From Olsenella uli DSM 7084 (GTDB taxonomy: Bacteria; Actinomycetota; Coriobacteriia; Coriobacteriales; Atopobiaceae), in contig NC_014363.1 of the NCBI RefSeq assembly GCF_000143845.1, positions 62,001-126,000 on the forward strand: 64,000 bases of DNA, read 5' to 3'. The position numbers and the translations under genes were made by a program. The notes under the pieces were generated by a model. That model searched no databases and was not told the origin of the DNA. It saw nothing but the letters and a program-made list of their open reading frames with translations. Below are positions 3,037 through 64,000 of this stretch, in pieces (positions within the stretch are counted from its first letter, which is position 1; every line of letters starts with the position of its first letter).

Positions 3037-3161
3037 CGCCTTCCCCTCTCGGATCTCGCGATGGCATGGTGACCGTGTGGCCCTCCTTGTAAGGAAGGTG
3101 TACTAAAAGCGTGCTCATCCCTCCTTTTGTCCACAAGCGATGAACAAATTTCACATTCTTC

Positions 3162-3191
3162 TTGCAAAACAGGAAAAAACAGGAATAGTAT
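3162..3191 (+). promoter_or_regulatory. Predicted promoter of the first PTS operon with internal direct repeat
   Basis: TTGCAA (3162-3167) and TAGTAT (3186-3191) are separated by 18 bases. The spacer contains the direct repeat AACAGGAA, at 3168-3175 and again ending near 3185. The surrounding 100 bases are A/T-rich compared with the rest of the region. This is a likely site for the divergent DeoR protein. Confidence 0.5.
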
Positions 3192-3319
3192 GTGAACATC
3201 CTGAGGATGACGAGATGTATGCCATGCAGGATTCGCATGTTTTGTGAAGTGCAGAGGTCCCCATCGTCTCCGGTCCACGGGCCGAGATTACGGTGGGCCT
3301 CTAGGAGGGAGGGCGACAC

Positions 3320-3772
3320 GTGGCTACGATGGCAGACATGCTCAAGCGTGAGAACGTCCAGGTTGTCGAAACCTGCGGCGGCTGGGAGGATGCGATCGCC
3401 GTTGCCGTGCAGCCGCTGGTTGACGGGGGCTACGTCACGCCCGCCTACGTCGAGGGCATCATCGAGAACACCCACAAGTTTGGCCCCTACTTCGTCCTCG
3501 CTCCCGATCTCGCGCTTCTCCATGCCCGTCCTGAGCAGGGTGTCATCAGCCAGCAACTCGCCGTCACCGTCTTGCGCGAGGGCGTCGAGTTCAAGGAGGG
3601 CGAGCCCGTTCGCGTGCTTGTGACCCTCGCTGCGGAGAACCCCGACTCGCACATCGACGTCATGCGCGTCCTCGCCACCATGTTCTCCGATCCGAAGAAC
3701 ATCGAGAAGGTCGCCACCGCCTCGACGGCAGACGACATCTTTGGCTTCTTCGTCAGTGGCGGCGCCGAGTAA
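3320..3772 (+). CDS. PTS EIIA component, mannitol/fructose class, ascorbate-type system
   Basis: The 150-residue cytoplasmic EIIA takes phosphate from HPr and passes it to EIIB. The phosphorylated histidine is His68 in DLALLHARPEQGV, the typical ascorbate-type EIIA context. The GTG start at 3320 has GGAGGGAGGG 6 bases upstream; an ATG three codons later is an alternative. It is the first gene of the operon EIIA-EIIC-EIIB-tktN-tktC-deoC. It resembles the EIIA at 16122, so the two systems are paralogous, but the accompanying enzymes differ. The transported sugar cannot be deduced. Confidence 0.88.
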   Translation: MATMADMLKRENVQVVETCGGWEDAIAVAVQPLVDGGYVTPAYVEGIIENTHKFGPYFVLAPDLALLHARPEQGVISQQLAVTVLREGVEFKEGEPVRVLVTLAAENPDSHIDVMRVLATMFSDPKNIEKVATASTADDIFGFFVSGGAE

Positions 3773-3861
3773 CGACGGCTCGGCGGCGCCGATGGAAGCC
3801 ACTGGCGCGCGTCCATTCAGGCAAGCACGAAGCAGGTTCGTTTCGATTTGAAGGGGGAAAC

Positions 3862-5334
3862 ATGGCAGTACTCGACTTCATAGTCAACATTCTGTCGACG
3901 CCGGCTATCCTGGTCGGGCTCCTCGCCCTCATCGGCCTCGCCCTCCAGGGCAAGCCCGTCGAGGACGTCACCAAGGGCACCATCAAGACCATCGTGGGAT
4001 TCCTGGTCCTGTCGGCCGGTGCTGCGTTCTTGCAGTCCGGCTCCCTGCTCGCGTTTGGCGAGCTGTTCAACTACGCCTTCAACATGCAAGGCGTCGTTCC
4101 CAACAACGAGGCCGTCGTCGCCGACGCACTCCAGAACTTCGGCACCAGCTCGGCCATCATCATGGCCCTCGGCATGGCGTTCAACATCGTCCTGGCCCGC
4201 TTCTCCCGCATGCCCTACATCTTCCTGACCGGCCACCACACCCTCTACATGGCCTGCATGCTCGCTGTCATCCTCGGCGGTGCCGGCCACCTCGAGGGTG
4301 GCGCCCTCTATCTGGCGGGTGGATGCCTCCTCGGCCTGATCATGGTCCTCTCGCCCGCCTACTGTCAGGTCACCTTCCGTAAGGTCACCGGCTCCGACGG
4401 CGTTGCCCTGGGCCACTTCGGCGGCATCGGCTACTGGTTTGCCGGCGTCGTGGGCAGGCTCTTCGCCAACGACCCCAAGCGCAGGAGCACGGAGGAGATC
4501 TCCTTCCCCAAGCGTCTCGTCTTCCTGCGTGACACCACCGTCTCCATCTCCATCACGATGATGGTCTTCTTCCTCGTCGTCGTAGGAGTCGCCGTTGCCA
4601 AGGGCGTCCTGGGCATCGTCCCCGCGGGCACCGATCCCGCCTCCGCCTCCGCTCTCCTCGAGCCCTACGGCCTGACCGTCGCCAACGTGGGCGCACTGCT
4701 CAACATCGGCACCGAGACCACGACCAACTGGATCGTCTGGTCCCTCACCGCAGGCATGAGCTTCGCCGGTGGCGTCTACATCATCCTGTCCGGCGTCCGC
4801 CTGATCATCGGCGAGATCGTCCCCGCCTTCAAGGGCATCGCCGACAAGCTCGTCCCTGGCGCCAAGCCCGCCTTGGACTGCCCCGTCGCCTTCACCTACG
4901 CCCCCAACGCCGTCATCATCGGCTTCCTGAGCTCCTTCGTGGGCGGCATCATGGGCCTTCTCGTCCTCAACGGCATCAACGCCGCCATCCCCGTCGCCCT
5001 GATCCTTCCGGGCGTCGTCCCCCACTTCTTCTGCGGCGCCACCGCAGGCGTCTTCGGAAACGCCGAGGGCGGCCTCAAGGGCTGCATCGCCGGTGCCTTC
5101 GCGCACGGCCTGCTCATCACCTTCCTGCCCATGATCTGCATGCCCGTCTTCAACGCCCTGGGCTATGTGGGCACGACCTTCTCGGACGCAGACTTCTCCT
5201 GGATGGGCATCGTCTTTGGCAACGTCGTCAACTTCGCGCAGGGCGCCCTGCTCGTCGCCATCTGCGTCATCGTCTACATCCTTCCCATCGCCTATAACTT
5301 CGTGGCCCCCAAGAAGGAGCAGGCTACGGAGTAG
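3862..5334 (+). CDS. PTS EIIC permease, ascorbate family (UlaA/SgaT-like)
   Basis: This 490-residue membrane permease has about 10-12 hydrophobic segments. Family motifs are visible: IVGFLVLSAGA near the N-terminus, the repeated LVPGAKPALDCPVAFTYAPN segment, and HFFCGATAGVFGNAEGG near the C-terminus. AAGGGGGAA stands just before the ATG. UlaA-type permeases import a sugar that is phosphorylated by the partner EIIB. Here the order EIIA-EIIC-EIIB, with the split transketolase and DeoC behind, differs from the ulaABCDEF ascorbate operon. No UlaD, UlaE or UlaF homologue is adjacent, so ascorbate itself is not a safe call. Confidence 0.9.
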   Translation: MAVLDFIVNILSTPAILVGLLALIGLALQGKPVEDVTKGTIKTIVGFLVLSAGAAFLQSGSLLAFGELFNYAFNMQGVVPNNEAVVADALQNFGTSSAIIMALGMAFNIVLARFSRMPYIFLTGHHTLYMACMLAVILGGAGHLEGGALYLAGGCLLGLIMVLSPAYCQVTFRKVTGSDGVALGHFGGIGYWFAGVVGRLFANDPKRRSTEEISFPKRLVFLRDTTVSISITMMVFFLVVVGVAVAKGVLGIVPAGTDPASASALLEPYGLTVANVGALLNIGTETTTNWIVWSLTAGMSFAGGVYIILSGVRLIIGEIVPAFKGIADKLVPGAKPALDCPVAFTYAPNAVIIGFLSSFVGGIMGLLVLNGINAAIPVALILPGVVPHFFCGATAGVFGNAEGGLKGCIAGAFAHGLLITFLPMICMPVFNALGYVGTTFSDADFSWMGIVFGNVVNFAQGALLVAICVIVYILPIAYNFVAPKKEQATE

Positions 5335-5777
5335 CCATCAGCGTCCGCCTGGCGGTGGGACCGGGGTCGGGGGGTGCGGAATTCGCTCCCCGGCCCGCCT
5401 CTTAGGCAGACATTTGTCGTCTAAACGGACTTTTTTGCGCAAGCTATGTTGAACCACCTTCAATACTCGGTGGAGTCAGGTGACCGATGCGCCGTTCGCC
5501 TCGGCAAGCTCCTGTAGGCAATAGGTCTGCGACTCCTTGCGGGACGGGACGCATGACATGGCTCCGTCTCGCACGCAGCTGGTCACGCCATCATGTCGTC
5601 CTTCCCGGCACCGCTTGGGGGATGCGTTGCCCGCTGCGCGTGTCAGCTTTTTCAGTGCGTCTGCCCTGTGCTATCCCGGTCATCTTCCTGCCGGAAGGCA
5701 AAGCGAGTAGACTGGGGGCCGGTCGTTCTCACGCACCGCTCCCCACGGTGGTGTGACCCATAAAAAAGGAGAGCAAG
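5335..5777. other. Intergenic region between EIIC and EIIB with possible hairpins
   Basis: This 443-base gap is unusually long for the inside of a PTS operon. A GC-rich imperfect hairpin lies at about 5361-5400 just after the EIIC stop. Another small hairpin, CACCG/CGGTG, sits at 5737-5753 immediately before the EIIB ribosome site. Together these could down-regulate or separately regulate EIIB and the downstream genes. No protein-coding frame with a credible start was found. Confidence 0.45.
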
Positions 5778-6059
5778 ATGGCAATTCGCAAAATCATGTG
5801 CGCCTGCGGTTCCGGTCTGGGTTCCTCCCTCATCGTCCACATGAACACGGAGGAGGTCGTGAAGAAGCTCGGCCATCCGGAGATCGAGGTCGACCACACC
5901 ACCATCTCCGACGTCAACCCCACTGCGGCGGACCTCTTCGTCGTCGGGGCGGACCTGGGTGACTTCATCTCCAACATCCCCGACGAGCAGAAGGTCGTCC
6001 TGACCAACATCCTCGACAAGAACGAGCTCGAGCGGAAGATCGCCGCGCATCTGAGCTAG
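5778..6059 (+). CDS. PTS EIIB component, lactose/ascorbate type
   Basis: The 93-residue cytoplasmic protein has the phosphocysteine loop near its start: Cys10 in CACGSGLGSS. That is the hallmark of ascorbate/galactitol-type EIIB proteins. It receives phosphate from the EIIA and gives it to the sugar imported by the EIIC at 3862. AAAGGAG is 8 bases before the ATG. A long leader separates it from EIIC, while the transketolase genes follow closely. Confidence 0.9.
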   Translation: MAIRKIMCACGSGLGSSLIVHMNTEEVVKKLGHPEIEVDHTTISDVNPTAADLFVVGADLGDFISNIPDEQKVVLTNILDKNELERKIAAHLS

Positions 6060-6153
6060 GGTCGCCTCGCCTCGGGGGCCTATCCGCGCCCGAGCCTCTT
6101 TCCGTCGAGAAGGGCGCGTCTGCGTGCTCCCTGCCAACTAAGGAGTGAAGCTA

Positions 6154-7008
6154 GTGGAAGAGAAGGAACTCAGGGGCGTCAAGCTCCTTGCGGCCAAGGT
6201 CCGCCGCGACGTGCTTGCGATGCTCCAGCATCGTGGGTATGGCCATGTGGGCGGCTCGCTCTCCCTGGTCGAGGCCTACGCCGTCCTCTATGGCAAGCAG
6301 CTGCGCTATGACGCGGCCAACCCCCACTGGGAGGGGCGTGACCGCGTCGTGCTCTCCAAGGGCCATGCCGGGCCCGTCATGTATTCGACGCTCGCCGAGT
6401 GCGGCTTCTTTCCCACGGAGTGGCTCATGACGTTGAACGATGGGGGTACCAGGCTGCCGTCCCACACCGACCGCCTGAAGACCCCCGGGGTCGATGCGAC
6501 CACGGGCTCCCTGGGCCAGGGGACCTCAGAGGCCGCAGGCATCGCGCAGGCCCTTGCCATGAGGGGGTCGACGTCCTACACCTACCTCTTCGTCGGTGAT
6601 GGCGAGCTCAACGAGGGGCAGTGCTGGGAGGCATTCCAGTTCATCGCCGCCAAGCGCCTGAGCCGCTGCATCGTCCTCATCGACGACAACAAGAAGCAGC
6701 TGGACGGCACCACCGACGAGGTCATGTACAACTTCGACCTCGCAAAGAAGATGGAGGCCTTCGGATTTAGCACGCAGGTGGTCGACGGGCAGGACATCCG
6801 CGCCATCGACGCCGCCATCGACGCCGCCAAGCGGAACACGGAGACTGTCAACTGCATCGTGCTCGACACCACCAAGGGCGCGGGCGTCCCCTACTTCGAG
6901 CAAGCCGTCTCGAACCACTCCATGAAGTGGAACAACGATGAGATCAACCAGGCGACCGCCGAGGCGATCGCCCGACTCAACGACGAGATCGAGAGGGGTG
7001 AGGCGTAA
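6154..7008 (+). CDS. Transketolase, N-terminal (TPP-binding) subunit
   Basis: This is the first half of a split transketolase, 284 residues from the GTG at 6154, which has AAGGAG 8 bases upstream. A GTG at 6145 overlaps that ribosome site and is less likely. Motifs: GHVGGSLS, SKGHAGP, TTGSLGQG, and the thiamine-diphosphate signature GDGELNEGQCWEA ending in DDNK. With the next gene it moves two-carbon units between sugar phosphates such as xylulose 5-phosphate. The stop and the next start overlap (TAATG), so the subunits are translationally coupled. Split transketolases are often found in PTS or pentose operons. Confidence 0.9.
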   Translation: MEEKELRGVKLLAAKVRRDVLAMLQHRGYGHVGGSLSLVEAYAVLYGKQLRYDAANPHWEGRDRVVLSKGHAGPVMYSTLAECGFFPTEWLMTLNDGGTRLPSHTDRLKTPGVDATTGSLGQGTSEAAGIAQALAMRGSTSYTYLFVGDGELNEGQCWEAFQFIAAKRLSRCIVLIDDNKKQLDGTTDEVMYNFDLAKKMEAFGFSTQVVDGQDIRAIDAAIDAAKRNTETVNCIVLDTTKGAGVPYFEQAVSNHSMKWNNDEINQATAEAIARLNDEIERGEA

Positions 7009-7967
7009 TGTTCAAGCTCGCCGAGGACTGGGGCGCCGCCGGCAGGCCCTATCGCGATGCCGTCGTCGACACCCTGATCGACATGATGACAGGCGACGCG
7101 TCCATCGTCATGCTCGAGGCCGACCTAGGCGGCGCCTCGGGCACCCTCAAGATCCAGAAGGCGCTGCCCTCGCAGTTCATCGAGTGCGGCATCTCCGAGG
7201 CCAACATGATGGGCGTCGCAGCAGGCATGAGCTCCGAGGGCTTCATCCCCTTCGTCCACACCTTCGGGCCGTTCGCCACCCGTCGTGCCTTCGACCAGGT
7301 CTACCTGTCCGGTGCCTACGCCCACAACACCCTGAACATCTGGGGCTCCGACCCTGGCTTTACGGTGGGGGCCAACGGGGGCACCCACACCACCTGGGAG
7401 GACGTCGCGCTCATGCGGACCATCCCCGACGCCGTCGTCGTGGACGGGGCGGACCCCGTCCAGACCGAGTGGGTCGTCCGCGAGTTCTCCAAGTCCAGGG
7501 GCATCCACTACCTGCGCTGCGGTCGTAAGGCGTCCTACAAGGTCTACGAGGAGGGCTCGACCTTCGAGCTGGGCAAGGGCAACGTCATCCGTCGCGGCAC
7601 GGACGTGCTGATCGTGACCGCAGGCCAGCTTGTCAAGGATGCGCTCGATAGTGCCGACGGCCTCGAGGGGCAGGGCATCTCCGCCGAGGTCATTGACATG
7701 TTCTGCATCAAGCCGCTCGACGTCGATCTGCTCGTGTCGGAGTCTGCCGGCAAGCGTGCCGTCGTCACCTTCGAGAACCACGGCGTCATTGGTGGTCTGG
7801 GAGACGCCTGCGCGTCCGCTCTCATGGAGGCCGGCGTCGCCGTGCCCTTCAAACGCCATGGCGTCGTGGAGTCCTTCGGCCAGGTCGGTACCGCCGATTG
7901 GCTGCAAGCCACCTTCAAGCTCACCGCAGCGGATCTCGAGGAGACCGTGAAGTCCCTTCTCGACTAG
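7008..7967 (+). CDS. Transketolase, C-terminal subunit
   Basis: The 319-residue protein carries the pyrimidine-binding and C-terminal transketolase domains. Visible motifs are ECGISEANMMGVAAGMSSEG, containing the catalytic Glu that activates thiamine diphosphate, and the FGPFATRRAFDQ and GANGGTHTTWED segments. It completes the enzyme begun by the gene at 6154, with which it overlaps by one base. Placement between a PTS and deoC suggests that the imported sugar enters at the pentose-phosphate level. Confidence 0.9.
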   Translation: MFKLAEDWGAAGRPYRDAVVDTLIDMMTGDASIVMLEADLGGASGTLKIQKALPSQFIECGISEANMMGVAAGMSSEGFIPFVHTFGPFATRRAFDQVYLSGAYAHNTLNIWGSDPGFTVGANGGTHTTWEDVALMRTIPDAVVVDGADPVQTEWVVREFSKSRGIHYLRCGRKASYKVYEEGSTFELGKGNVIRRGTDVLIVTAGQLVKDALDSADGLEGQGISAEVIDMFCIKPLDVDLLVSESAGKRAVVTFENHGVIGGLGDACASALMEAGVAVPFKRHGVVESFGQVGTADWLQATFKLTAADLEETVKSLLD

Positions 7968-7972
7968 AGTTA

Positions 7973-8016
7973 CTCCCACATGGGGCCGCTCCCACATGGG
8001 ACCGCTCCCACACACC
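7973..8016 (+). repeat. 16-bp tandem repeat before deoC
   Basis: The unit CTCCCACATGGGGCCG at 7973-7988 is followed directly by CTCCCACATGGGACCG at 7989-8004 and by a partial third copy at 8005-8016. Each copy holds CCCA..TGGG, which can fold into a small hairpin. It fills the gap between the transketolase and deoC and may affect the deoC message. Confidence 0.8.
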
Positions 8017-8051
8017 ACACCGAGGGGCTTGTCGCCCGGAAGGACGGGGTC

Positions 8052-8693
8052 ATGAGGCTCAACCAGTACATGGACCACACGCTGCTCAAGCAGGACGCAA
8101 CCAAGTCGCAGCTCGACAGGCTGTGTGACGAGGCCGCCGAGCACGGCTTCAAGACCGTCTCCATCAACTCATGCTGGACCAGGCACTGCGCCGAGCGGCT
8201 GGCTGGCACGGGCGTGGGCATCACGAGCTGCATCTCGTTCCCCTTGGGCGCCTGCTCCACGGCTGCCAAGGCCGCCGAGGCCAGGCAGGCGGTGGCAGAC
8301 GGCACCACCGAGATCGACATGGTCCTCAACGTGGGGCGTCTTGTCTCTGGCGATGACGACTACTGCACGGAGGACATCCGTGGGGTGGTCGAGGCGGCGG
8401 ACGGCCGTCCCGTCAAAGTGATCCTCGAGGTGTGTCTGCTTGATGACGAGCAGATCGTCCGCGCCTGCAAGTGCGCCGTGGCGGCAGGCGCCGCGTTCGT
8501 GAAGACCTCCACGGGCTTCTCGACCGGCGGGGCCACCATCCATGCGGTCAAGCTCATGCGCCAGACCGTGGGCGACGCCTGCCAGATCAAGGCTGCGGGT
8601 GGCATTCACACCAAGGAAGAGGCGCTTGCGATGATCGAGGCGGGTGCCGACCGCATCGGAGCCTCCGCCTCCATCGCCATCTGCGAGGGGTAG
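8052..8693 (+). CDS. deoC: Deoxyribose-phosphate aldolase
   Basis: This 213-residue class I aldolase cleaves 2-deoxyribose 5-phosphate to acetaldehyde and glyceraldehyde 3-phosphate. The Schiff-base lysine is Lys151 in FVKTSTGFS, and the relay residues Asp89 (EIDMVLNVG) and Lys180 (QIKAAGGI) are present. The ATG at 8052 fits the family N-terminus (MDHTLLKQDAT follows). An upstream extension of 24 codons would read through the 16-bp tandem repeats and is rejected. The gene is the last of the first PTS operon. Either the sugar is a deoxy sugar, or the enzyme is used for a related short-chain aldol cleavage. Confidence 0.92.
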   Translation: MRLNQYMDHTLLKQDATKSQLDRLCDEAAEHGFKTVSINSCWTRHCAERLAGTGVGITSCISFPLGACSTAAKAAEARQAVADGTTEIDMVLNVGRLVSGDDDYCTEDIRGVVEAADGRPVKVILEVCLLDDEQIVRACKCAVAAGAAFVKTSTGFSTGGATIHAVKLMRQTVGDACQIKAAGGIHTKEEALAMIEAGADRIGASASIAICEG

Positions 8694-8704
8694 CATGCGG
8701 CTAC

Positions 8705-8736
8705 AGGGCCCGTCTGTGCCACTGGATCCGGGCCCT
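8705..8736 (+). terminator. Hairpin after deoC
   Basis: AGGGCCCG at 8705-8712 pairs with CGGGCCCT at 8729-8736, with a 16-base loop. No T run follows, so it may only protect the 3' end rather than terminate by itself. Confidence 0.45.
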
Positions 8737-8823
8737 CCTGGCCTAGAATGACCCCGGACGATAGGGAGGCGGCTGTGATTGCGCATGCCGCTGCGCGCCT
8801 GTGGGGAGGGCTGTCCTTTGCAC

Positions 8824-11800
8824 GTGGGAGTCGACAAGAGACGGGTCCTGAAGGTCGCAGGGTGGGCTGCGGGATCGGTCCTGCTGGTGGCCGTGGTCGC
8901 GGCCAACGTCGCGGCCGTGATGTTCGGCGAGACGCTCGAGTCGTTTTTGAGCACCGACAAGATCGACGTCACGGATACGGAGCGCCAAGCCCAGCTTGCG
9001 CGTGACGCAGCGCTGGCAGGTGAGGTCGAAGGCGGGGGGCTCGTTCTTCTCCAGAACCGCAATGCGATCCTGCCCCTGGCGAAGGACGTGACGAAGGTCA
9101 ACGTCTTCGGATGGGGCTCGACACAATGGGTGACGAGCGGCTCGGGTTCGGGAGGCGTCGCGGGTGAGAGCGCAGGCATCCTGGACGCGCTGACCAGTCG
9201 TGGCATCCAGTACAACGAGGGACTTGCCCAGATGTACCGCGACTTTCAGGCCGACAGGCCATGGAGGGACGCGGGTACGTTGAACTCGCGCGCGACGGAG
9301 TTCTGCCGTCTGTACGATCCGGACATCTCCGACGAGGGCTACTACTCCCAGCAGCTGCTTGACAGTGCCAGGGACTACTCCGACACGGCGATCGTGGTGC
9401 TGTCGCGCATGGCGGGCGAGAGCATCGACTGCCCCCGCGAACAGCTGCGCGTCCGTACGAAGGGGGCCTCGCCGGAGTGCGCGATGGGCCGCAGCTACCT
9501 GGAGCCCTCTCCCGAGGAGGAACGTCTCGTCAGGTACGTTGCCGCGAACTACCAAAACGTGATCGTGCTGGTGAACTCGACCAACGCCATGGAGCTGGGC
9601 ATCGTCGAGGACGTCGAGGGGGTCGACGCCTGCCTGCTCTGTGGTGCCACGGGCACCGACTCCGCCGGGGCGGTGGTGGATGCGCTCTGGGGTGACGTGA
9701 ACCCATCGGGGCGCACGACCGACACCTATGCCTACGATTTCAGCACCAATGCGAGCTATGCCAACGCTGGCGCGGAGGGGGAGGGCTGCTACGTTGGCTC
9801 GCGCGGGCTCTACCCGGCAGACGGTACTCCCGACACGAACGAGGGCGTCGCCGCAACGTACGACACGGTCCGCTTCGTCGACTATGTCGAGGGAGTCTAT
9901 CTGGGATATCGCTGGTATGAGACGGCTGATGCCGAGGGATACTGGGACGACGTCTCCAACCGCCATGGCATGGGGTATGCCGCCGTGGTGCAGTACCCGT
10001 TTGGCTATGGCCTCAGCTACACGGCATTCGATTGGAAGATCGTCTCGCGCAGGCCACGCCGTGGCAGTAACCTGGCAGACGATGACACCGTCACGACGAC
10101 GGTGCGCGTGACCAACGTCGGGCCTGTTGCGGGCAAGGACGTGGTGGAGCTCTATGCGACGCCTCCCTACATCGCAGGTGGCATCGAAAAGCCCTCTACC
10201 GAGCTTGTGGCCTTCGCGAAGACCGACTTGCTGCAGCCGGGAGAGTCACAGGACGTGGTGCTCAGCTTCACGACGCGCGACCTGGCAAGCTACGACTGCT
10301 ACGACGCCAACCACAACGGCTTTGCGGGCTACGAGGTCGAGCGTGGCGACTACCAGGTCGAGCTCAAGCGCGATGCCCACACCCTGGATGACTGCGCCCA
10401 TGCGAGCGCCACCTATCATGTGGACCATGACATTTGCTACGAGACTGACGCCACAACCGGGGCTGCGGTCACCAACCGCTTTACGGGAGACGTCGCGGAG
10501 GCCGGCATCTCGATCGACGGGGTGACGACGGGCGCGGGCATCCGCTACCTCACACGCGCCGACTTCAAGGGAAGCTTCCCCCAGACGCGCGACGTGGACC
10601 GTCCCATGTCCAACGCCGTTCAGATCTTCAACCGCTATGACGCGGGCCTCGCCACCGCCCAGGATGCCGCCGCGAGTCGCGGGGCGTCCGTGGGTTCGGA
10701 AGCATCGGGGCCCGATGACGTGACTCGCGAGGGTGATGCGTCGCCCACGGCCGACGCCGACGAGGCCGCTCCCGCCGCGTCAGGCCTCGCATCGGCATAT
10801 GCCCTCACGTCGAACGGGGCACTCACGCCCCTGGGTCGCGAACTGGGAGAAGACTACAACGACCCGCGCTGGTCACCCCTCCTCGATCGCCTGGGCCAAA
10901 GCGAGATGGAAAGGTTCGTGCTGCATGGGTACTCCAACTCAGGAGCACTCGAGGGGGTTTCGAAGCCGCGTACCAAGGACCTGGACGGGTCGTCTCAGGC
11001 GGCGTCGTTCAATCAGCTGAGATACGGGACGGGCTTCCCCAGCCCCACGGTCCTGGCCCAGACATGGGACACCCAGCTTGCCCGTCGCTATGGGAGGGCC
11101 GTGGGCATGGAGTGCGCCATGCTCGGCATCGACGGTTGGTACGCGCCGGCATGCAACCTGCATCGCTCGCCGGTGGGCGGGCGCAACTACGAGTACTACT
11201 CGGAGGACCCGCTCGTCTCGGGTGAGATGGCCGCACAGACCATCCTGGGATCGAAGGAGACGGGCACCTTCTGCTACCTCAAGCACATGGTGCTCAACGA
11301 GCAGGACTCCTACCGGGACTCGCTCTACACCTGGCTGACCGAGCAGTCCCTGCGGGAGCTGTACCTCGAGCCGTTCCGCATTGCCGTAGAGGAGGGGGGC
11401 GCCACGGGAATGATGAGCTCATACAACCGCATCGGCGCCATCTGGACCGGTGGCAGCAGGGCGCTGCTCACGGAGGTGCTGCGCGGCGAGTGGGGCTTCC
11501 GGGGTTCGGTCATCACAGACTACAGCGACCATCACAGCTACATGAACGCAGACGAGATGCTGCGTGCGGGAGGCAGCCTCTACATGGATGGCGTGTTCCG
11601 CGACGGCTCGTTCCGCTTCGGGACCGATTCGCCCAACTTCCGCGCCTGCCTGCGCCGCGCCACCAAGGATGTCATCTACGCCTGGCTCAATGCCCGTGCG
11701 GCAAACCTTGCCTACAACGATGCGGCCCTGCAGGCGGGCACGGCCACGATCGACCGACCCCTCAAGCACCGGGGCGTCTCGCCGGTGCTCGTGGGCATAT

Positions 11801-57570: not shown

Positions 57571-57838
57571 GCGTTGCTTGTGCGATTTTCTCCTGGGCTC
57601 GGAAATGGCGTCGGTCGTCGGTAAGGGACCGTTGAGCATCAGGAGCCTTCGACATCTTGGCATTCAGCCCTCTAGTCGTGGCATGAGTGCTCCATGCAGT
57701 AATTGAATCTTAGGTAGAGCGACCAACGACTCAAAATCTTTGTTGGAAACATGAAGGTGGTTCTGGTGCGTTCTCCCCTATAGTCTGGGGATATCATGTT
57801 CAAAACTTGTCCACTTCTCTATTGTTTGGCAGGCGTTC
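57571..57838. other. Intergenic region before the gntR gene of the third PTS cluster
   Basis: This is an A/T-richer stretch with no gene. CTTGTCCA at 57806-57813, near the gntR start, matches the half-sites upstream of the tpi-like gene (TTGTCCA/TGGACAA). That suggests autoregulation by the GntR protein. Confidence 0.5.
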
Positions 57839-58606
57839 ATGGCCACAAGAAGCCTTCTGGGAGATAACGATTCAGCTACGTTGACAGAAGCGCTCTTTAC
57901 CCAGTTGGCATCCATTCTCAGGGAGAAGATTTATTCCCATGAATGGCAAAGTGGATCTCGGATACCTTCTGAGCACGACCTTATGCGCGAGTTCAGGCTG
58001 TCTCGTGGCACTGTTCGCCGGGCGATAGGGGTTCTAATCGAGGAGGGCAGACTCGTCCAACGGCGTGGCAAGGGCACATTTGTCACCGGGCCGGGCATTT
58101 CACACCCGGCAGGTGTAAGGCCGATTTCCTTTGCAGAGTCCTTGAGACGTCAAGGCAAGGATTTCGTTACGCATGTTCTAGTCAAGCAGGTAACATCTGC
58201 GCCCGAGAGCGTGGCGAATGAGCTAGATATTAAGGTAGGTGACCCTGTCATGTACATGCGCAGGGTTCGAACGGTGGAAGACACGCCTGTCATATGCCAG
58301 GAAAGTTGGACGAATCTCAACGAGTGCGAGGGCATCGAGGACATTGACTTCACTAAGGTCTCGCTATTTGATGCCGTCGAGAAGACATCAAAGCGTAAGG
58401 TCAAATACTCCGAAATGAAGTATGAGGCCCTGGTTGCGGGGTCTGAGCACGGCGCGCTGCTCGGCTGTGACGAGAATACGGCTGTTCTCCACCTTGAGCA
58501 GGTCATTCACCTTGAAGATGACGCCAAGATAGAGTGGAGTGTCACATGGCTGACTCCGGGCCAATCAATCGTGGGTACCGCATATCAGCCTGAGAGCTAT
58601 AGCTAA
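57839..58606 (+). CDS. GntR-family regulator (UTRA domain) of the third PTS cluster
   Basis: The 255-residue regulator has a GntR winged helix (about 20-90; GSRIPSEHDLMREFRLSRGTVRRAIG) and a C-terminal UTRA ligand domain (YMRRVRTVEDTPVICQESWTNL). Third codon positions are far less GC-rich than in the housekeeping genes. The start lies close to a CTTGTCCA half-site; four related half-sites lie before the downstream tpi-like gene. It likely represses the cluster until a sugar phosphate binds. No strong ribosome site is seen before the ATG. Confidence 0.9.
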   Translation: MATRSLLGDNDSATLTEALFTQLASILREKIYSHEWQSGSRIPSEHDLMREFRLSRGTVRRAIGVLIEEGRLVQRRGKGTFVTGPGISHPAGVRPISFAESLRRQGKDFVTHVLVKQVTSAPESVANELDIKVGDPVMYMRRVRTVEDTPVICQESWTNLNECEGIEDIDFTKVSLFDAVEKTSKRKVKYSEMKYEALVAGSEHGALLGCDENTAVLHLEQVIHLEDDAKIEWSVTWLTPGQSIVGTAYQPESYS

Positions 58607-58682
58607 GCTCCCCTACTAAAGGGCCTCCGCACCATTTGTCGGCACATACATGCCGTTCATGGACTCTTCATATCTATCTTAA

Positions 58683-58735
58683 CTTGTACATTCAATACTG
58701 GACAAGAAGCGTGTTGTCCACTTTTTAGAGGACAA
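58683..58735 (+). promoter_or_regulatory. Cluster of TTGTCCA/TGGACAA operator half-sites
   Basis: CTTGTACA (58683-58690), TGGACAAG (58699-58706), TTGTCCA (58714-58720) and GGACAA (58730-58735) alternate in orientation. TGGACAA and TTGTCCA form an inverted repeat with an 8-base spacer. The same half-site precedes the gntR gene. This is the expected operator of the GntR protein encoded just upstream. Confidence 0.7.
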
Positions 58736-58782
58736 CTGTTTGCTTCTGTGTCGTTGCAATGGTGAGTTGAGGAGAGAGTTTC

Positions 58783-59493
58783 ATGGACAAGATTGTTCTC
58801 AGGCGCCCGTTTTTCGTCGTCAACCCCAAGTCCTACCTGTACGGAGAGAAGCTCCGCAGGCTCGCTCGCAAGACGGATGGGCTCTGCGAGCGTTACGGCT
58901 TCCAGTCCCTGTTCACCGCACAGCTCATCGATCTCGCTTGGGTTGCGGACAACTGCCCGCATCTCATCCCGTGCGCTCAGGCCATGGAGAGCCTCAGGCC
59001 CGGCCGCGGCATGGGGCACGTCCTCCCGGAGGCGCTCGCCGCCGCAGGGGTGCGCGCAACGTTCCTCAACCACGCCGAGAACCCCATGACGGTGGGCGAG
59101 CTCGCCAGGACCGTCGCGCGTGCCCGCGAGGTGGGCATCCTCACCTGCGTGTGCGCCGACTCCGTCGAGGAGGCCAAGGCCATCGCCGAGCTCCACCCCG
59201 ACATCATGACGTGCGAGCCCAACAGCCTCATCGGCACCGGCCGCATCGCCGGCGGGGACTACATCCGCGCCTCCACCGAGGCCGTCAAGTCCGTCTCGCC
59301 CGGGACAATGGTCCTGCAGGCCGCCGGCATCTCCACCGGCCAGGACGTCTATGACGCCATCCACTACGGCGGCGACGCCACGGGCGGCACCTCGGGCATC
59401 GTCTGCGCGGGGGACCCCGAGGCGAAGCTCGAGGAGATGTTCGAGGCGCTCGGCCGCGTCCGCGCCGACATCCAGGGGGAGGCCCGGCCATGA
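58783..59493 (+). CDS. Triosephosphate-isomerase-family protein (divergent, in PTS cluster)
   Basis: The 236-residue TIM-barrel protein has TPI-like landmarks: FVVNPKSYLYGEKL (usual NWKMN region), a catalytic-His segment TFLNHAENPMTV (LGHSERR in TPI), CEPNSLIGTGRIAGG (with the catalytic Glu) and GGDATGGTSGIVCAGDP for phosphate. The changes at the active-site loops mean it probably isomerises another phosphorylated sugar, as TpiA2-like enzymes do in tetritol pathways. GAGGAGAG precedes the ATG. Very GC-rich codon use contrasts with the genes on both sides. It overlaps the next gene (ATGA). Confidence 0.78.
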   Translation: MDKIVLRRPFFVVNPKSYLYGEKLRRLARKTDGLCERYGFQSLFTAQLIDLAWVADNCPHLIPCAQAMESLRPGRGMGHVLPEALAAAGVRATFLNHAENPMTVGELARTVARAREVGILTCVCADSVEEAKAIAELHPDIMTCEPNSLIGTGRIAGGDYIRASTEAVKSVSPGTMVLQAAGISTGQDVYDAIHYGGDATGGTSGIVCAGDPEAKLEEMFEALGRVRADIQGEARP

Positions 59494-60011
59494 CGGTCTA
59501 CAAGGGGCTGGTGAGGGTCGAGACGCTCGCCGGGAAGCCGACCTACGTCGACGTCACCAATGAGGTTGCCGACATCGTCTCATGGAGCGGCATCAGGGAG
59601 GGCGTCGTCCACTGCATCTCCTGCCACACGACCTGCGCCGTCTACTCCCAGGAGTTCGACCACGACATGACCCCGGCCGGCGACACCTTCATGCAGGCCG
59701 ACCTCTCGGACGGCCTGGACAGGGTCTTCCCCGAGCAGCGCGACTGGAAGACGTACCGCTACCCCGGCCTTCGCCACTTCGAGGAGGTCGAGGGCTGGCC
59801 GGACGCGGAAGCCTACCTCCCAGGGGGCGACCGCACCCTGCTCTGGAACGGCGACGCGCACCTGCGCTCCGTGCTCGTGGGTGGCAGCCAGACCTTCGAG
59901 GTGGCCGGCGGCAGGCTCGAGATGAACGGCCTCGCGAGCATCTTCTTCGTCGACTTCGACCGCACGCGCGAGCGCACCCGCAAGCTTCGCGTCGTGGTGA
60001 TGGGGGAGTAG
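59490..60011 (+). CDS. YjbQ/UPF0047 family protein
   Basis: The 173-residue protein belongs to the YjbQ family: CISCHTTCAVYSQEFD contains conserved His and Cys, and GDAHLRSVLVGGSQTFEVAGG is the family motif. Members have a reported weak thiamine-phosphate-synthase activity, but their true role is open. It overlaps the tpi-like gene by 4 bases, so the two are translated together and may act on the same substrate. Codon use is very GC-rich, as in its partner and unlike the PTS genes that follow. Confidence 0.85.
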   Translation: MTVYKGLVRVETLAGKPTYVDVTNEVADIVSWSGIREGVVHCISCHTTCAVYSQEFDHDMTPAGDTFMQADLSDGLDRVFPEQRDWKTYRYPGLRHFEEVEGWPDAEAYLPGGDRTLLWNGDAHLRSVLVGGSQTFEVAGGRLEMNGLASIFFVDFDRTRERTRKLRVVVMGE

Positions 60012-60073
60012 CTGTTTCAAGTCTGTCGGTAGCGGAGCGAGTTATTCGTTCCTAGGTGAATTGGAGGATTACG

Positions 60074-60370
60074 ATGGCAAAGATGAAGCACATTCTTCTC
60101 TCCTGCGGTTCAGGAATCGTCACTTCGACGGTAGCGAGGAAGAAGGTCGAGGCGCTTCTTGACAGCCATGGCTATAAGGGGCAGTACGAAATTACTCAGA
60201 TTCCCTTGGCTTCGGCTCCGGAGAAGTCTCGAAACTACGACTTTATTGTTGCGACTTCGATAGCCCCTACTGAGCTCCACTGCCCCTATGTGAATGGGGT
60301 CCCGTATCTGATGGGCCGGGGGGCTGAGGAGACTGACGCTCAGATTCTAAAGCTCATGGAAGAGGATTAG
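60074..60370 (+). CDS. PTS EIIB component, galactitol type
   Basis: The 98-residue GatB-like protein has the phosphocysteine in LLSCGSGIVTSTVARKK. It phosphorylates the substrate of the EIIC that follows. TTGGAGG lies 6 bases before the ATG at 60074. Third codon positions have much more A and T than the previous two genes. No EIIA of this type is found in the window; it may lie downstream, or another EIIA may serve. Confidence 0.88.
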   Translation: MAKMKHILLSCGSGIVTSTVARKKVEALLDSHGYKGQYEITQIPLASAPEKSRNYDFIVATSIAPTELHCPYVNGVPYLMGRGAEETDAQILKLMEED

Positions 60371-60492
60371 CGGCTGCGCTTCTCTGCTCTCCAACAATTC
60401 AGATTGCTTATTTCACATTCCTCAAGGGGTATGTTGGGTGTTGCTTGCGCTGATGGGCGCATAGACGTTGGGCTAAGTATTTGAGGAAAGGA

Positions 60493-61893
60493 ATGGAGAT
60501 GAATGCTTTTCTTGGATTCTTCCAGTTTATTTCGGGACTGGGAGTGTCGGTAATGATGCCAATCGTGCTCACCATCTTGGGGTGTTGCTTGGGGGCCGGA
60601 TTTGGTAAGAGTCTCCGCGCTGGTTTGACTGTCGGCGTTGGTTTCATCGGCCTTAACCTTGTCATTAACTCGCTGCTCGGCACGACCCTTTCTCCTGCCG
60701 TCCAGACCATGGTCGAGCGCTTTGGCCTGTCCCTTACGGTTGTGGACGTGGGTTGGCCTGCTGCTGCTGCAATCGCCATGGGTTCCACTGTTGGAATCAT
60801 CATCATCCCGCTTGGCCTTGCAGTGAACATTGTGATGCTTCTTACCAATACGACCCAGACTGTTGATGTTGACATTTGGGACTACTGGCACTTTGCTTTC
60901 ACAGGTGCCCTTGTCGCGATTGTTACCGACTCAATCGTTTGGGGCATTATTGCTGCCATCCTCAACATGATTATCATCATGGTCCTTGGCGACTACACGG
61001 CTCCTCTGGTTGAAGAGTCTCTCAACATGCCCGGTGTCTCTCTGCCTCACGGTTTTACGGCAGCGTATGCGCCAATCGCCATGCTCTTCAACTGGATTTT
61101 TGACAAGATTCCCGGCCTTCGTGATATCGACATCAACACGGATACCCTGCAGAAGAAGTTCGGTGTCTTTGGTGAGCCAATTCTCGTTGGTACCATGATT
61201 GGCCTTGTTATCGGCTGCCTCGCATATTGGGATCCCAGTGACATTGCCACTTCAATCACTCAGGTTCTGACCCTTGCTGTGTCCCTTGGTGCTGTGTTGG
61301 TTCTCATTCCCAAGATGGCCGCGCTGCTCATGGAGGGCCTGCTTCCAATTTCCGATGCCGCATCCACCTTTGTAGAGAAGCGTTTCAAGAACCGTGGCAA
61401 GATTTACATCGGCCTCGATTCCGCCGTAGGCGTTGGTCATCCCGTGACGCTTGCCATCTCGTTCGTCCTCGTTCCGCTCTGCATCTTCCTCGCCGTCATC
61501 CTGCCGGGCAACAAGGTGCTTCCCTTTGCTGACCTAGCTGTGATTCCGTGGATGTTCGTTCTCATCACCCCTGTCGTGCACAACAACGGCTTCCGCGGCA
61601 TCATCATTGGTATCATCGTTCTTACTGTTGGTCTTTACATTGCTACTGACCTTTCGCCACTGATTACAACCGCAGCCGCAAACGTTCAGTTTGACATGGG
61701 TACCGCAACCGCAATTTCCTCTATTTGTGACGGCGCAAACCCGCTCACGTGGCTCATCGTCCGCATCGGCTCCTTCATGAATGGTATCGGCATGATCGTG
61801 ATTGCGGTCCTGGCCATTGCCCTTGCTATCTGGAACCGCAAGCGCATTCTCAAGGAGGCTGCTGAGCTTCACGCTGCCAAGAGTGAGGAGTAA
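60493..61893 (+). CDS. PTS EIIC permease, galactitol family
   Basis: The 466-residue multi-helix GatC-like permease shows PIVLTILGCCLGAGFGKSLR at its N-terminus, GLDSAVGVGHPVTLAISFVL, and WMFVLITPVVHNNGFRGIII. It imports a polyol or related sugar for phosphorylation by the EIIB at 60074. AGGAAAGGA precedes the ATG at 60493; a second ATG at 60499 is possible. A GC-rich hairpin follows. Related systems carry galactitol, and distant members carry tetritols or other polyols. Confidence 0.9.
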   Translation: MEMNAFLGFFQFISGLGVSVMMPIVLTILGCCLGAGFGKSLRAGLTVGVGFIGLNLVINSLLGTTLSPAVQTMVERFGLSLTVVDVGWPAAAAIAMGSTVGIIIIPLGLAVNIVMLLTNTTQTVDVDIWDYWHFAFTGALVAIVTDSIVWGIIAAILNMIIIMVLGDYTAPLVEESLNMPGVSLPHGFTAAYAPIAMLFNWIFDKIPGLRDIDINTDTLQKKFGVFGEPILVGTMIGLVIGCLAYWDPSDIATSITQVLTLAVSLGAVLVLIPKMAALLMEGLLPISDAASTFVEKRFKNRGKIYIGLDSAVGVGHPVTLAISFVLVPLCIFLAVILPGNKVLPFADLAVIPWMFVLITPVVHNNGFRGIIIGIIVLTVGLYIATDLSPLITTAAANVQFDMGTATAISSICDGANPLTWLIVRIGSFMNGIGMIVIAVLAIALAIWNRKRILKEAAELHAAKSEE

Positions 61894-61942
61894 GTAGACA
61901 GCACGAGGTCTTGGTCCCCTGGGTCATTTCCTAGCATTCCTA

Positions 61943-61980
61943 ACGCCGGGGCCACACTTACCTTTGTGCGGCCCCGGCGT
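61943..61980 (+). terminator. Strong hairpin between EIIC and the next gene
   Basis: ACGCCGGGGCC (61943-61953) pairs with GGCCCCGGCGT (61970-61980), with CAC/GTG continuing the stem inside. It is followed by GTTTGG and the ribosome site of the next gene. It probably ends or reduces transcription, giving less of the downstream aldolase genes. Confidence 0.7.
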
Positions 61981-61992
61981 GTTTGGAGAGTC

Positions 61993-62568
61993 ATGAAGAA
62001 GTCTTTTGTCTACGAGCCACCATTTTACAAGATCGAGGTGACTTTCACTGGCGTGTTTTGCGCCGTGGTTTGCATCGCTTGCATCGCGATTGCGGTCCTT
62101 GATGCCTTCATCCCTCGTGGTCTCGCATTGATTTTTGGCGCTGTCGCATTCTACCAGGTATGGAATACGTTTGTTTCGCTTTCCAACCCAGAGCGAGTGG
62201 AGATTGATGAGGAGGGCGATTCCATCTCGTTCTCTGGCCTTGGGCGCGTGGACTCCTACAAACTCTCTGAGCTTTCGACTTTTCTAGTGAGGCCTTTTCC
62301 AAGTTCAGGAAAGACATACATACGCGTCCAGGACCACAACATCTTTAAAGGACGATACTGGGTCCCCACAAAGATGTTCTCAGATGGGGGAGAGCTCTTT
62401 GCTTACCTCGTCAATTTGGGCAACAAAGTTCACCCTAATTCGCTTCTTGCCCGTGCGCATGATGTAAATAAGGACTACTTAGAACATGCTGACCAGATTG
62501 AGGCCATCCGTTCACGGGAGAGGTCTGCGCAGCGGAGCAGAAGAACCACCAAGGCGAAAAAACTTTGA
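61993..62568 (+). CDS. Unknown membrane protein, PH-domain-like
   Basis: The 191-residue protein has two membrane helices near the N-terminus (about 19-38 and 41-60). A beta-rich domain follows (ERVEIDEEGDSISFSGLGRV and GKTYIRVQDHNIFKGRYWVP), then a basic helical tail (RSRERSAQRSRRTTKAKKL). The fold resembles bacterial PH-like membrane proteins, but no family is certain. The start is ATG 61993, with GGAGAG 5 bases away and directly after the hairpin. A role in the PTS cluster is not evident; it might be a recent insertion or an accessory. Confidence 0.7.
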   Translation: MKKSFVYEPPFYKIEVTFTGVFCAVVCIACIAIAVLDAFIPRGLALIFGAVAFYQVWNTFVSLSNPERVEIDEEGDSISFSGLGRVDSYKLSELSTFLVRPFPSSGKTYIRVQDHNIFKGRYWVPTKMFSDGGELFAYLVNLGNKVHPNSLLARAHDVNKDYLEHADQIEAIRSRERSAQRSRRTTKAKKL

Positions 62569-62634
62569 TTCAGGCAGGCGAACACTGAGAGGAAAACCGG
62601 TGCCCACAACAAATCAGGGAGGCAAGTTCACAGT

Positions 62635-63315
62635 ATGTTTGAATCTGAAAAGAAGGAAATGCTGGAATGTGCGCTCAAGCTCGATCGATATGGGCTAATC
62701 GCACTGTCTGGTGGCAATGTAAGCGTGCGTGCGGGTGATGACCTTTTCATCGTTACGCCGTCAGGTATGGTTTACGACGAGATGGTCCCCGAGGACATGC
62801 TTGTTGTTGATGGAAAGGGAAACGTCGTCGAGGGAATGCGAAAGGCTTCGGTTGACACTGCAGCGCTTCTCTACATCTTCCACCATATGCCTAAGGTCAA
62901 CGCTGTAATTCATACGCATCAGCCCTATGCAACTGGTCTCGGCTTGGTTATGGATGAGATACCATGCAACCTCTCCACGATGGCGAATGCCGTAGAAGGG
63001 CCCTGTCATGTTGCTAACTACGGCAATCCGGGGTCACTGTCTATGGGTGCACAGGCGGTTGAATCCATTGGTGATCAGCTTGCTGTAGTGCTCAAGCATC
63101 ATGGAGTCATTGCAGTTGGCAGGGACCTTCGCCAAGCGATGTTCTCTTGCGTCTACCTCGAGGAGGCAGCGAAGACCGTTTCCGTGGCGCTTTCTACTGG
63201 CAGGCCGATGGCCGAGATGACACAGGTGCAAATTGACGAGGCGGTCTCCGTTTTTCATCGGTATGGTCAGCATACGCTTGACGAGCAAGATGCAGAAGAG
63301 GCTGCAAGGAACTGA
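62635..63315 (+). CDS. Class II aldolase/adducin-family sugar-phosphate aldolase
   Basis: The 226-residue zinc aldolase is of the FucA/AraD fold. Landmarks are LSGGNVSVR, the TPSGMVYDEM loop, the zinc ligands in VIHTHQPYATGL and the C-terminal VVLKHHGVIAVG. Members cleave or epimerise small sugar phosphates such as fuculose 1-phosphate, ribulose 5-phosphate or tetronate phosphates. It precedes a class II bisphosphate aldolase. The A/T-richer codon use matches the PTS genes of this cluster. The substrate cannot be named. Confidence 0.85.
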   Translation: MFESEKKEMLECALKLDRYGLIALSGGNVSVRAGDDLFIVTPSGMVYDEMVPEDMLVVDGKGNVVEGMRKASVDTAALLYIFHHMPKVNAVIHTHQPYATGLGLVMDEIPCNLSTMANAVEGPCHVANYGNPGSLSMGAQAVESIGDQLAVVLKHHGVIAVGRDLRQAMFSCVYLEEAAKTVSVALSTGRPMAEMTQVQIDEAVSVFHRYGQHTLDEQDAEEAARN

Positions 63316-63350
63316 AATGGCCGACAGTACGATTGTCGTCAGGAGTAACA

Positions 63351-64000
63351 ATGATTATTAATCTTCGTGATATATGCGCTGTGGCTGAACAGAACAATAT
63401 GGCCATTGCATCCTTCAACGTCCCGAGCTTTGAAGCCCTGAGGGCTGCTATTGATGTTGCTGAGGAAACTGACCATCCCGTTATCCTGAGCCACGCTGAA
63501 GGACACGAACCTCTTGCGCCCCTAGATTCCATTGGGCCTGTCATGGTTGCACTTGCGGAGCGTTCGAGTGCCATGCTGTGTGTCCACCTGGATCACTGCG
63601 AGCATCTTTCTTACATGCGGCGCGCCCTTGAGATTGGCTTTACCGGCGCTATGTATGATGGGTCCTTCGAGCCGTATGAAGTCAACCTTGAGAATTCTCA
63701 GCGTGCCGCAGAAATGTGCTCTGGCTTTGACTGTGGTATCGAATGCGAGCTTGGCTCAATGGGATCGCGAGAGGCAGGTCAACGCGACGAGGGTGGCACT
63801 GCCGAGGAGTCGGGCGCAGTATACACAGACCCTGACCAGGCAGCAGACTTCATCGCATCAACGGGCACGGATATTCTTGCCTGCTCGTTTGGCACGGTAC
63901 ACGGGATTTACAAGGGTGAACCGCACCTTAACTTCAAGGTCCTTACTGACATCCGGGACCGCGTAAAGATTCCACTGGTCATGCATGGAGGCTCGGGCGT
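63351..64000 (+). CDS. Class II fructose/tagatose-bisphosphate-type aldolase (3' end outside window)
   Basis: About 216 residues are visible. The start is ATG 63351 with AGGAG 5-6 bases upstream. It matches the GatY/KbaY/FbaA family: IASFNVPSFEALRAAIDVAE, VHLDHCEH (zinc His and Asp), IECELGSMG, CSFGTVHGIYKG and VMHGGSG. It lies 35 bases after the FucA-type aldolase, so both are in one transcript. The window ends before the C-terminus. An insert-like EEGGTAEES stretch is normal for the family. Divergence from the aldolase at 13482 argues for a different substrate. Confidence 0.88.
   Translation, partial: MIINLRDICAVAEQNNMAIASFNVPSFEALRAAIDVAEETDHPVILSHAEGHEPLAPLDSIGPVMVALAERSSAMLCVHLDHCEHLSYMRRALEIGFTGAMYDGSFEPYEVNLENSQRAAEMCSGFDCGIECELGSMGSREAGQRDEGGTAEESGAVYTDPDQAADFIASTGTDILACSFGTVHGIYKGEPHLNFKVLTDIRDRVKIPLVMHGGSG

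Follow-up and report, generated by a model that had tools for sequence, protein, structure and literature searches.

Which sugar is handled by the operon that closes this stretch of DNA from Olsenella uli DSM 7084? The stretch, referred to here as the window, is 64,000 nucleotides long and covers positions 62001-126000 of a 2.05 Mb genome in one contig; the feature coordinates below are window positions. An earlier note, made from the letters alone, had seen at its end an uncharacterised pathway fed by a galactitol-family phosphotransferase system (PTS), with a triosephosphate isomerase (TPI)-like enzyme, a YjbQ-family protein and two aldolases. All eight genes that it named were found in place on the + strand, and all except a membrane protein were assigned to Pfam or NCBIfam families. 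Our preferred, though tentative, proposal is that the operon would be a PTS-fed route, through YjbQ, the TPI-like enzyme and an aldolase of the fructose-bisphosphate aldolase (FBA) fold, for a sugar of the 2-ketopentose type, the likeliest being 1-deoxy-D-xylulose or a stereoisomer. The substrates, the order of the steps and the reaction of YjbQ are inferred on the grounds of gene context and residue conservation. Among openly licensed papers, none was found that describes this pathway.

The isomerase, YjbQ and the aldolase

The TPI-like isomerase (58783..59493, + strand, 236 residues) is assigned by its sequence to the archaeal-type TPI family (NF003302, 167.8 bits against a cut-off of 132), with the TIM fold and the catalytic Asn/Lys, His and Glu present. 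These residues, N14, K16, H97 and E145, are kept in at least 97% of 74 homologues and in 20/20 sequences of a second alignment, and the AlphaFold2 model (pLDDT 91) has the archaeal TPI 1hg3 as its best match (TM 0.86-0.90). The earlier note had described altered active-site segments. The segments flanking the catalytic residues do differ from those of ordinary TPI (CEPxxLIGTG for EPPELIGTG, TGGTSGI for GVLLASG), but every catalytic residue is retained. That the operon has a TPI-family isomerase of its own was confirmed; a separate ordinary TPI is encoded elsewhere in the genome (C1:1442646, 303.6 bits), and the TPI-like protein is therefore unlikely to be the glycolytic TPI of the cell. A TPI-family enzyme, EryH, has been given the tetrulose-phosphate isomerase step in Brucella erythritol catabolism (PMC5992420), which by analogy may be a precedent for TPI-family enzymes acting on larger ketose phosphates. 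In one locus (L109) a TPI-like gene lies beside SecDF genes without operon context, and this locus was excluded as a pathway locus.

The YjbQ gene (59490..60011, + strand; PF01894, 82.1 bits over a cut-off of 27) starts inside the stop codon of the TPI-like gene (ATGA, 59490-59493), and this 4-bp overlap suggests translational coupling of the two. The YjbQ family is widespread and has no settled role. With 173 amino acids versus 138 in E. coli and a TIGR00149 score of 59.6 bits, under the cut-off of 67.75, the operon protein is classed in a divergent long subfamily of YjbQ/UPF0047. The long form carries an inserted helical segment bearing H96, one of the residues invariant in alignments (H46, H58, D59, H96, N120, D122, H124, R162 and R164), plus a Y-x-Y-P-G motif. 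Its predicted model matches nine YjbQ structures well (VIA-align; Z 15-19, root-mean-square deviation 1.4-1.9), and when other enzymes with a YjbQ-like fold were sought by structure comparison, nothing but YjbQ structures stood out. In the Erysipelotrichaceae loci L066, L069 and L071 the YjbQ gene is doubled in tandem (174 and 173-179 amino acids).

The class II ketose-phosphate aldolase of the FBA/KbaY/YdjI fold (63351..64000, continuing to 64238 outside the window, + strand; PF01116, 209.9 bits) keeps the metal-binding and active-site or dihydroxyacetone phosphate (DHAP)-site motifs HLDH, ELG, HG and HGGSG when aligned with KbaY, GatY and YdjI. It reaches no equivalog cut-off in NCBIfam. The nearest solved relative is YdjI (6ofu), annotated in E. 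coli as octuluronate-1-phosphate aldolase, that is, for a ketose 1-phosphate substrate. This annotation and the lack of a kinase in the operon speak against the "bisphosphate-type" label given to the enzyme in the earlier note. A lost 6-phosphate-binding residue was also considered as proof of a monophosphate aldolase and was not decisive, since KbaY and GatY, from which the C-terminal segment departs, are also unlike each other there. The genome has six class II FBA-type genes, the operon copy included.

Conservation was followed in 81 loci, from 80 public genomes and from O. uli, gene clusters being counted per locus; some of the absences in the counts are contig ends or gene-calling failures. 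The gene set named in the earlier note recurs in these loci: TPI in 74, FBA in 71, YjbQ in 66, EIIC in 57, EIIA in 55, EIIB in 54, the membrane protein in 41, GntR in 37 and a second, FucA-fold aldolase-like protein in 18, so that the two aldolase-like genes are unequal. The triad of TPI-like enzyme, YjbQ and FBA-fold aldolase is conserved in Coriobacteriia, Erysipelotrichaceae, Enterococcus, Clostridium, Thermoanaerobacterium and Gilliamella. The grouping is not due to chance, and YjbQ does belong with the TPI-like isomerase, as had been supposed: the two are conserved neighbours across phyla.

The enzymes are constant and the transporter varies, with a Gat, Man or glucitol-type PTS or an FGGY kinase; most loci have the Gat PTS. 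Several Atopobiaceae loci combine a mannose-type PTS with an allulose-6-phosphate/ribulose-phosphate 3-epimerase-like gene. A glucitol-type PTS stands beside the triad in Enterococcus cecorum, Thermoanaerobacterium sp. Bu65, Clostridium psychrophilum, Centipeda/Selenomonas and Gilliamella; the c22 and c24 genes, guessed from their lengths to be dihydroxyacetone (DHA) kinase, are glucitol-PTS EII components. An FGGY kinase is added in some Clostridium triad loci, and a ribulose-phosphate 3-epimerase-like protein in the Man-PTS and FGGY-kinase versions. The minimal Enterococcus operon consists of a regulator, EIIA, EIIC, EIIB, FBA, TPI and YjbQ and encodes no redox step. Since this version holds just three enzymes, the triad should suffice to convert the PTS product to central metabolites. 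In L081 and L083 the triad is adjoined by an FGGY kinase, a NifS-like cysteine desulfurase homologue and a URO-D-family methyltransferase-like protein.

A distant variant in Clostridia (L294-L308) pairs the TPI-like protein and YjbQ with an FGGY kinase, a SIS-domain sugar-phosphate isomerase and a fructose-6-phosphate aldolase instead of FBA. Even this arrangement supports the view that the TPI-like protein and YjbQ are functional partners. The variant also bears a gene with weak similarity to sulfoquinovose isomerase.

A possible route through deoxyxylulose phosphate

In the route that we propose, the Gat-type EIIA, EIIB and EIIC would import the ketose and phosphorylate its C5, giving X-CO-CHOH-CHOH-CH2OP, which is 1-deoxyxylulose 5-phosphate (DXP) when X is CH3. 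YjbQ would shift the carbonyl from C2 to C3, and the TPI-like enzyme would use the usual enediol chemistry of TPI to carry it from C3 to C4, beside the phosphate-bearing carbon, and so form a ketose 1-phosphate. The FBA-fold aldolase could then split the 5-deoxyketopentose 1-phosphate into DHAP, which would enter glycolysis, and acetaldehyde (for X = CH3), which could be reduced by AdhE; AdhE is encoded in the genome. The ribulose-phosphate 3-epimerase family acts on 2-keto-3-hydroxy phosphates, and the epimerase-like proteins of other loci, perhaps also the AraD/FucA-fold protein of this operon, would fit a 2-keto-3,4-dihydroxy 5-phosphate. The latter might act as a stereochemical helper, either a 4-epimerase or a second aldolase.

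The deoxy sugar is suggested by DXR-II, an enzyme that interconverts DXP and methylerythritol 4-phosphate (MEP). A DXR-II family protein is found in four glucitol-PTS triad loci, and the copy in L087 aligns over its full length with Brucella DXR-II (3upl, E 1e-85). DXR-II is present in 10 of the 28 triad genomes searched, versus about 9% of two class samples (38/399 and 34/391). Sorted by the transporter adjacent to the triad, it occurs in 7/7 genomes where that transporter is a glucitol PTS and in 1/16 where it is a Gat PTS (Fisher p = 3e-5; merging near-duplicates gives 3e-4). Among 64 DXR-II loci, 52 have a glucitol PTS, 28 have pyruvate dehydrogenase (PDH)/acetoin-dehydrogenase-like E1/E2(/E3) genes, 8 have the triad TPI (four preselected for the triad and four from the class samples) and 1 has both the complex and the triad TPI. 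Chance adjacency of DXR-II and the triad in the class samples was estimated at ~0.02, versus the four seen. The substrate-site lysines K191 and K193, as well as T229 and R320, of the verified DXR-II family (PMC3847144) are kept in 63-64 of the 64 loci. The same paper reports Firmicutes that possess both DXR-I and DXR-II, and two species whose DXR-II stands without other genes of the MEP or mevalonate pathways (PMC3847144).

In the glucitol-PTS relatives, 2-C-methylerythritol would be imported as MEP and oxidised to DXP by DXR-II running backwards before the triad acts. The Gat-PTS loci mostly lack DXR-II, and their PTS should therefore deliver the ketose directly, 1-deoxyxylulose for example. 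From an acyloin such as DXP, an acetoin-dehydrogenase-like complex could produce acetyl-CoA and glyceraldehyde 3-phosphate; as a PDH/acetoin-dehydrogenase-like complex would suit such a substrate, the triad, which occupies the same position, looks by analogy like a coenzyme A (CoA)-free substitute for it. The DXR-II/glucitol-PTS loci look like a methylerythritol catabolic operon in their own right. Sixty DXR-II loci (L191-L250) were collected from Bacilli and Clostridia; the gene lies there with the glucitol-type PTS and often with the PDH/acetoin-dehydrogenase-like E1/E2/E3 set, and others carry a HAD phosphatase and a glycerol-1-phosphate-dehydrogenase-like gene.

The wider generalisation, that TPI, YjbQ and aldolase form a DXP catabolic module fed either by PTS-imported deoxyxylulose or by PTS-imported 2-C-methylerythritol via reversed DXR-II, is a little more doubtful than the proposal for the O. 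uli operon. If true, it would give YjbQ a primary function, as a ketose-phosphate isomerase, and would explain DXR-II in Firmicutes with no isoprenoid need for it. Methylerythritol and deoxyxylulose, sugars of the isoprenoid pathway that plants and microbes release, would then be food for bacteria, and a catabolic role would fall to the scattered DXR-II enzymes, including those of species reported without other isoprenoid-pathway genes (PMC3847144). The fixed partnership with the TPI-like isomerase makes the function of YjbQ testable with three purified enzymes.

Several observations weigh against this deoxyxylulose proposal. DXR-II was found in 0/120 genomes when O. uli and other relatives were searched, though the same query matches many Firmicutes, and the link to DXP therefore rests on other lineages. 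At the genome level in the Clostridia sample, the TPI-like protein and DXR-II occur together six times (seed genome included) versus about four expected, which is no enrichment; the distant TPI-YjbQ form there, with its FGGY kinase, SIS isomerase and fructose-6-phosphate aldolase, could account for this weak co-occurrence. The DXR-II signal lies in adjacency and PTS type, not in genome-level co-occurrence. The same distant variant indicates that the TPI-YjbQ pair may serve more than one substrate. To our knowledge, no isomerase activity of YjbQ has been demonstrated, and the activities reported are weak secondary ones. The AraD/FucA-fold protein (62635..63315, + strand; PF00596, 152.7 bits) is probably left unexplained by the pathway. 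Aligned with E. coli AraD and FucA, this predicted class II metal enzyme keeps the zinc histidines, has an Asp at the position of FucA Glu73 and lacks AraD Asp120; neither catalytic residue set is complete, so it was not accepted as a canonical aldolase or epimerase.

Other sugars considered

The main rival is a hydroxylated pentulose, which we consider unlikely though worth keeping in view. The same walking of the carbonyl would apply to a pentulose, whether ordinary or rare (X = CH2OH; for example L-ribulose, L-xylulose or a 3/4-epimer), and would give DHAP and glycolaldehyde. The FGGY pentulose-kinase-like and ribulose-phosphate-3-epimerase-like partners of other loci and the AraD/FucA-fold protein in the operon would suit such a sugar, but the pentose phosphate pathway already takes in D-pentulose 5-phosphates, so that three extra enzymes would be wasteful, and the DXR-II and acetoin-dehydrogenase-like associations point to a 1-deoxy compound. 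A galactitol- or tagatose-like hexulose is less probable again. Here a kinase encoded elsewhere would add a second phosphate, the FBA-like enzyme would cleave the ketose bisphosphate, the TPI-like enzyme would handle triose phosphates and YjbQ would be accessory. EIIC and the aldolase do belong to galactitol/tagatose-bisphosphate families; however, neither this operon nor the minimal Enterococcus operons encode a kinase or dehydrogenase, the genome already has its ordinary TPI, and the conserved YjbQ and the DXR-II link are left unexplained.

The earlier note had favoured a polyol or tetritol entering as a phosphate, an idea that fared poorly: the operon has no dehydrogenase, and aldol cleavage of a tetrulose 1-phosphate such as erythrulose 1-phosphate would give formaldehyde. 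A version in which erythrulose enters as its phosphate, with the TPI-like enzyme converting L-erythrulose 1-phosphate and D-erythrulose 4-phosphate into each other, has the EryH step of Brucella (PMC5992420) in its favour, yet RpiB and a DHA-type kinase are also absent from the operon and the near-universal aldolase has no natural place; we regard it as improbable. We give very little credence to a compound like autoinducer-2, for which the TPI-like enzyme would play the part of LsrG and isomerise the phosphorylated form (phospho-DPD) before its cleavage. The carbonyl shift needed is that of established TPI chemistry, some regulators of triad loci resemble LsrR, and LsrK is the best solved match of one kinase. 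However, these regulators and kinases belong to broad families and score better as DeoR and XylB, no LsrF-like thiolase is present in the operon, and DXR-II would again be unexplained.

Operon layout and related systems

The full gene order is GntR, TPI-like isomerase, YjbQ, EIIB, EIIC, membrane protein, AraD/FucA-fold protein, FBA-fold aldolase and EIIA, with intergenic gaps of 33-176 bp apart from the overlap of the TPI-like gene and YjbQ. Past the window end, where the earlier note had proposed to look for an EIIA, a kinase and a dehydrogenase, the aldolase stops at 64238 and is followed by the PTS EIIA gene (64272-64751, + strand), which groups with the EIIA of other loci; no kinase or dehydrogenase follows. 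EIIA is the last gene of the operon, which is complete; the gene that probably comes next is encoded on the other strand. No GatD-type dehydrogenase, tagatose-6-phosphate kinase or RpiB was found in the operon, the DNA past the window end being scanned too; an rpiB-like open reading frame lies ~9 kb downstream, outside the operon. The note's view that this is not the galactitol/tagatose route was thus upheld. Neither of the two findings that it had named as refuting its idea, downstream genes completing that known route and an isomerase that is an ordinary TPI, was obtained.

EIIB, of the lactose/galactitol type (60074..60370, + strand; PF02302), scores 26.7 bits with the galactitol EIIB equivalog, under the cut-off of 95, and the galactitol-family EIIC (60499..61893, + strand; PF03611, 305 bits) scores 432 bits with TIGR00827, under 542. 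A Gat-family set of EIIA, EIIB and EIIC is thus predicted, with all scored EII proteins below the galactitol equivalog cut-offs. The small membrane protein (61993..62568, + strand; cluster c6) has no assigned family and no match in Pfam, NCBIfam or PADLOC; its gene stands beside EIIC in about half of the loci (41/81).

The operon opens with a GntR/UTRA transcription regulator (57839..58606, + strand; PF00392 and PF07702). Upstream of it, at 57807..57818, is the first copy of a shared motif, TTGTCCACTTCT, a possible operator; TTGTCCACTTYT has two exact copies in the window, versus 0.19 expected by chance with one mismatch allowed. Before the TPI-like gene, the inverted repeat TGGACAAG...TTGTCCA (58699..58725), also flagged by the terminator scan, runs into the second TTGTCCACTT copy. 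Motifs of the TTGTCCACTT type ahead of both genes are a plausible candidate GntR operator. The nearest relatives by protein identity are from Olsenella (94% for the TPI-like protein), and a plasmid search gave no match. A second, decayed copy of the operon lies in the same genome (G000:C1:1930000-1949900, L251, about 3106-11426, - strand), with GntR (53% identical), a truncated or frameshifted TPI-like gene, EIIB, EIIC (68%), the membrane protein and EIIA; it has no YjbQ, FucA-fold or FBA gene, and opposite-strand reading frames lie between the membrane protein and EIIA.

Compared with known systems, the operon resembles the E. coli Gat PTS/tagatose-bisphosphate route in its EIIA/EIIB/EIIC family and aldolase fold, but it lacks GatD, the kinase and GatZ, adds the TPI-like isomerase and YjbQ, and its aldolase and EII proteins score under the galactitol/tagatose equivalog cut-offs. 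With the erythritol and threitol pathways (EryH/TpiA2) it would share a TPI-family enzyme moving a carbonyl along a sugar phosphate; unlike the Ery/Ler/Der pathways, it has the archaeal-type TPI subfamily and no RpiB, kinase or dehydrogenase, and it ends in an aldolase. YdjI is encoded with the kinase YdjH and dehydrogenases, whereas the operon aldolase comes with a PTS, TPI and YjbQ. Fold and core residues are common to the operon YjbQ and the YjbQ/UPF0047 proteins known as secondary thiamin-phosphate synthase, from which it differs by its length and its fixed isomerase partner. The proposed logic of moving a ketone next to the phosphate-bearing carbon and releasing DHAP would be that of LsrG/LsrF processing of phospho-autoinducer-2, although the enzymes are unrelated and Lsr uses a CoA-dependent thiolase where the operon has an aldolase. 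The FBA-TPI-YjbQ triad is shared with some Firmicutes DXR-II (DRL) loci, where it stands by a glucitol-type PTS, in contrast to O. uli with its Gat-type PTS and no DXR-II.

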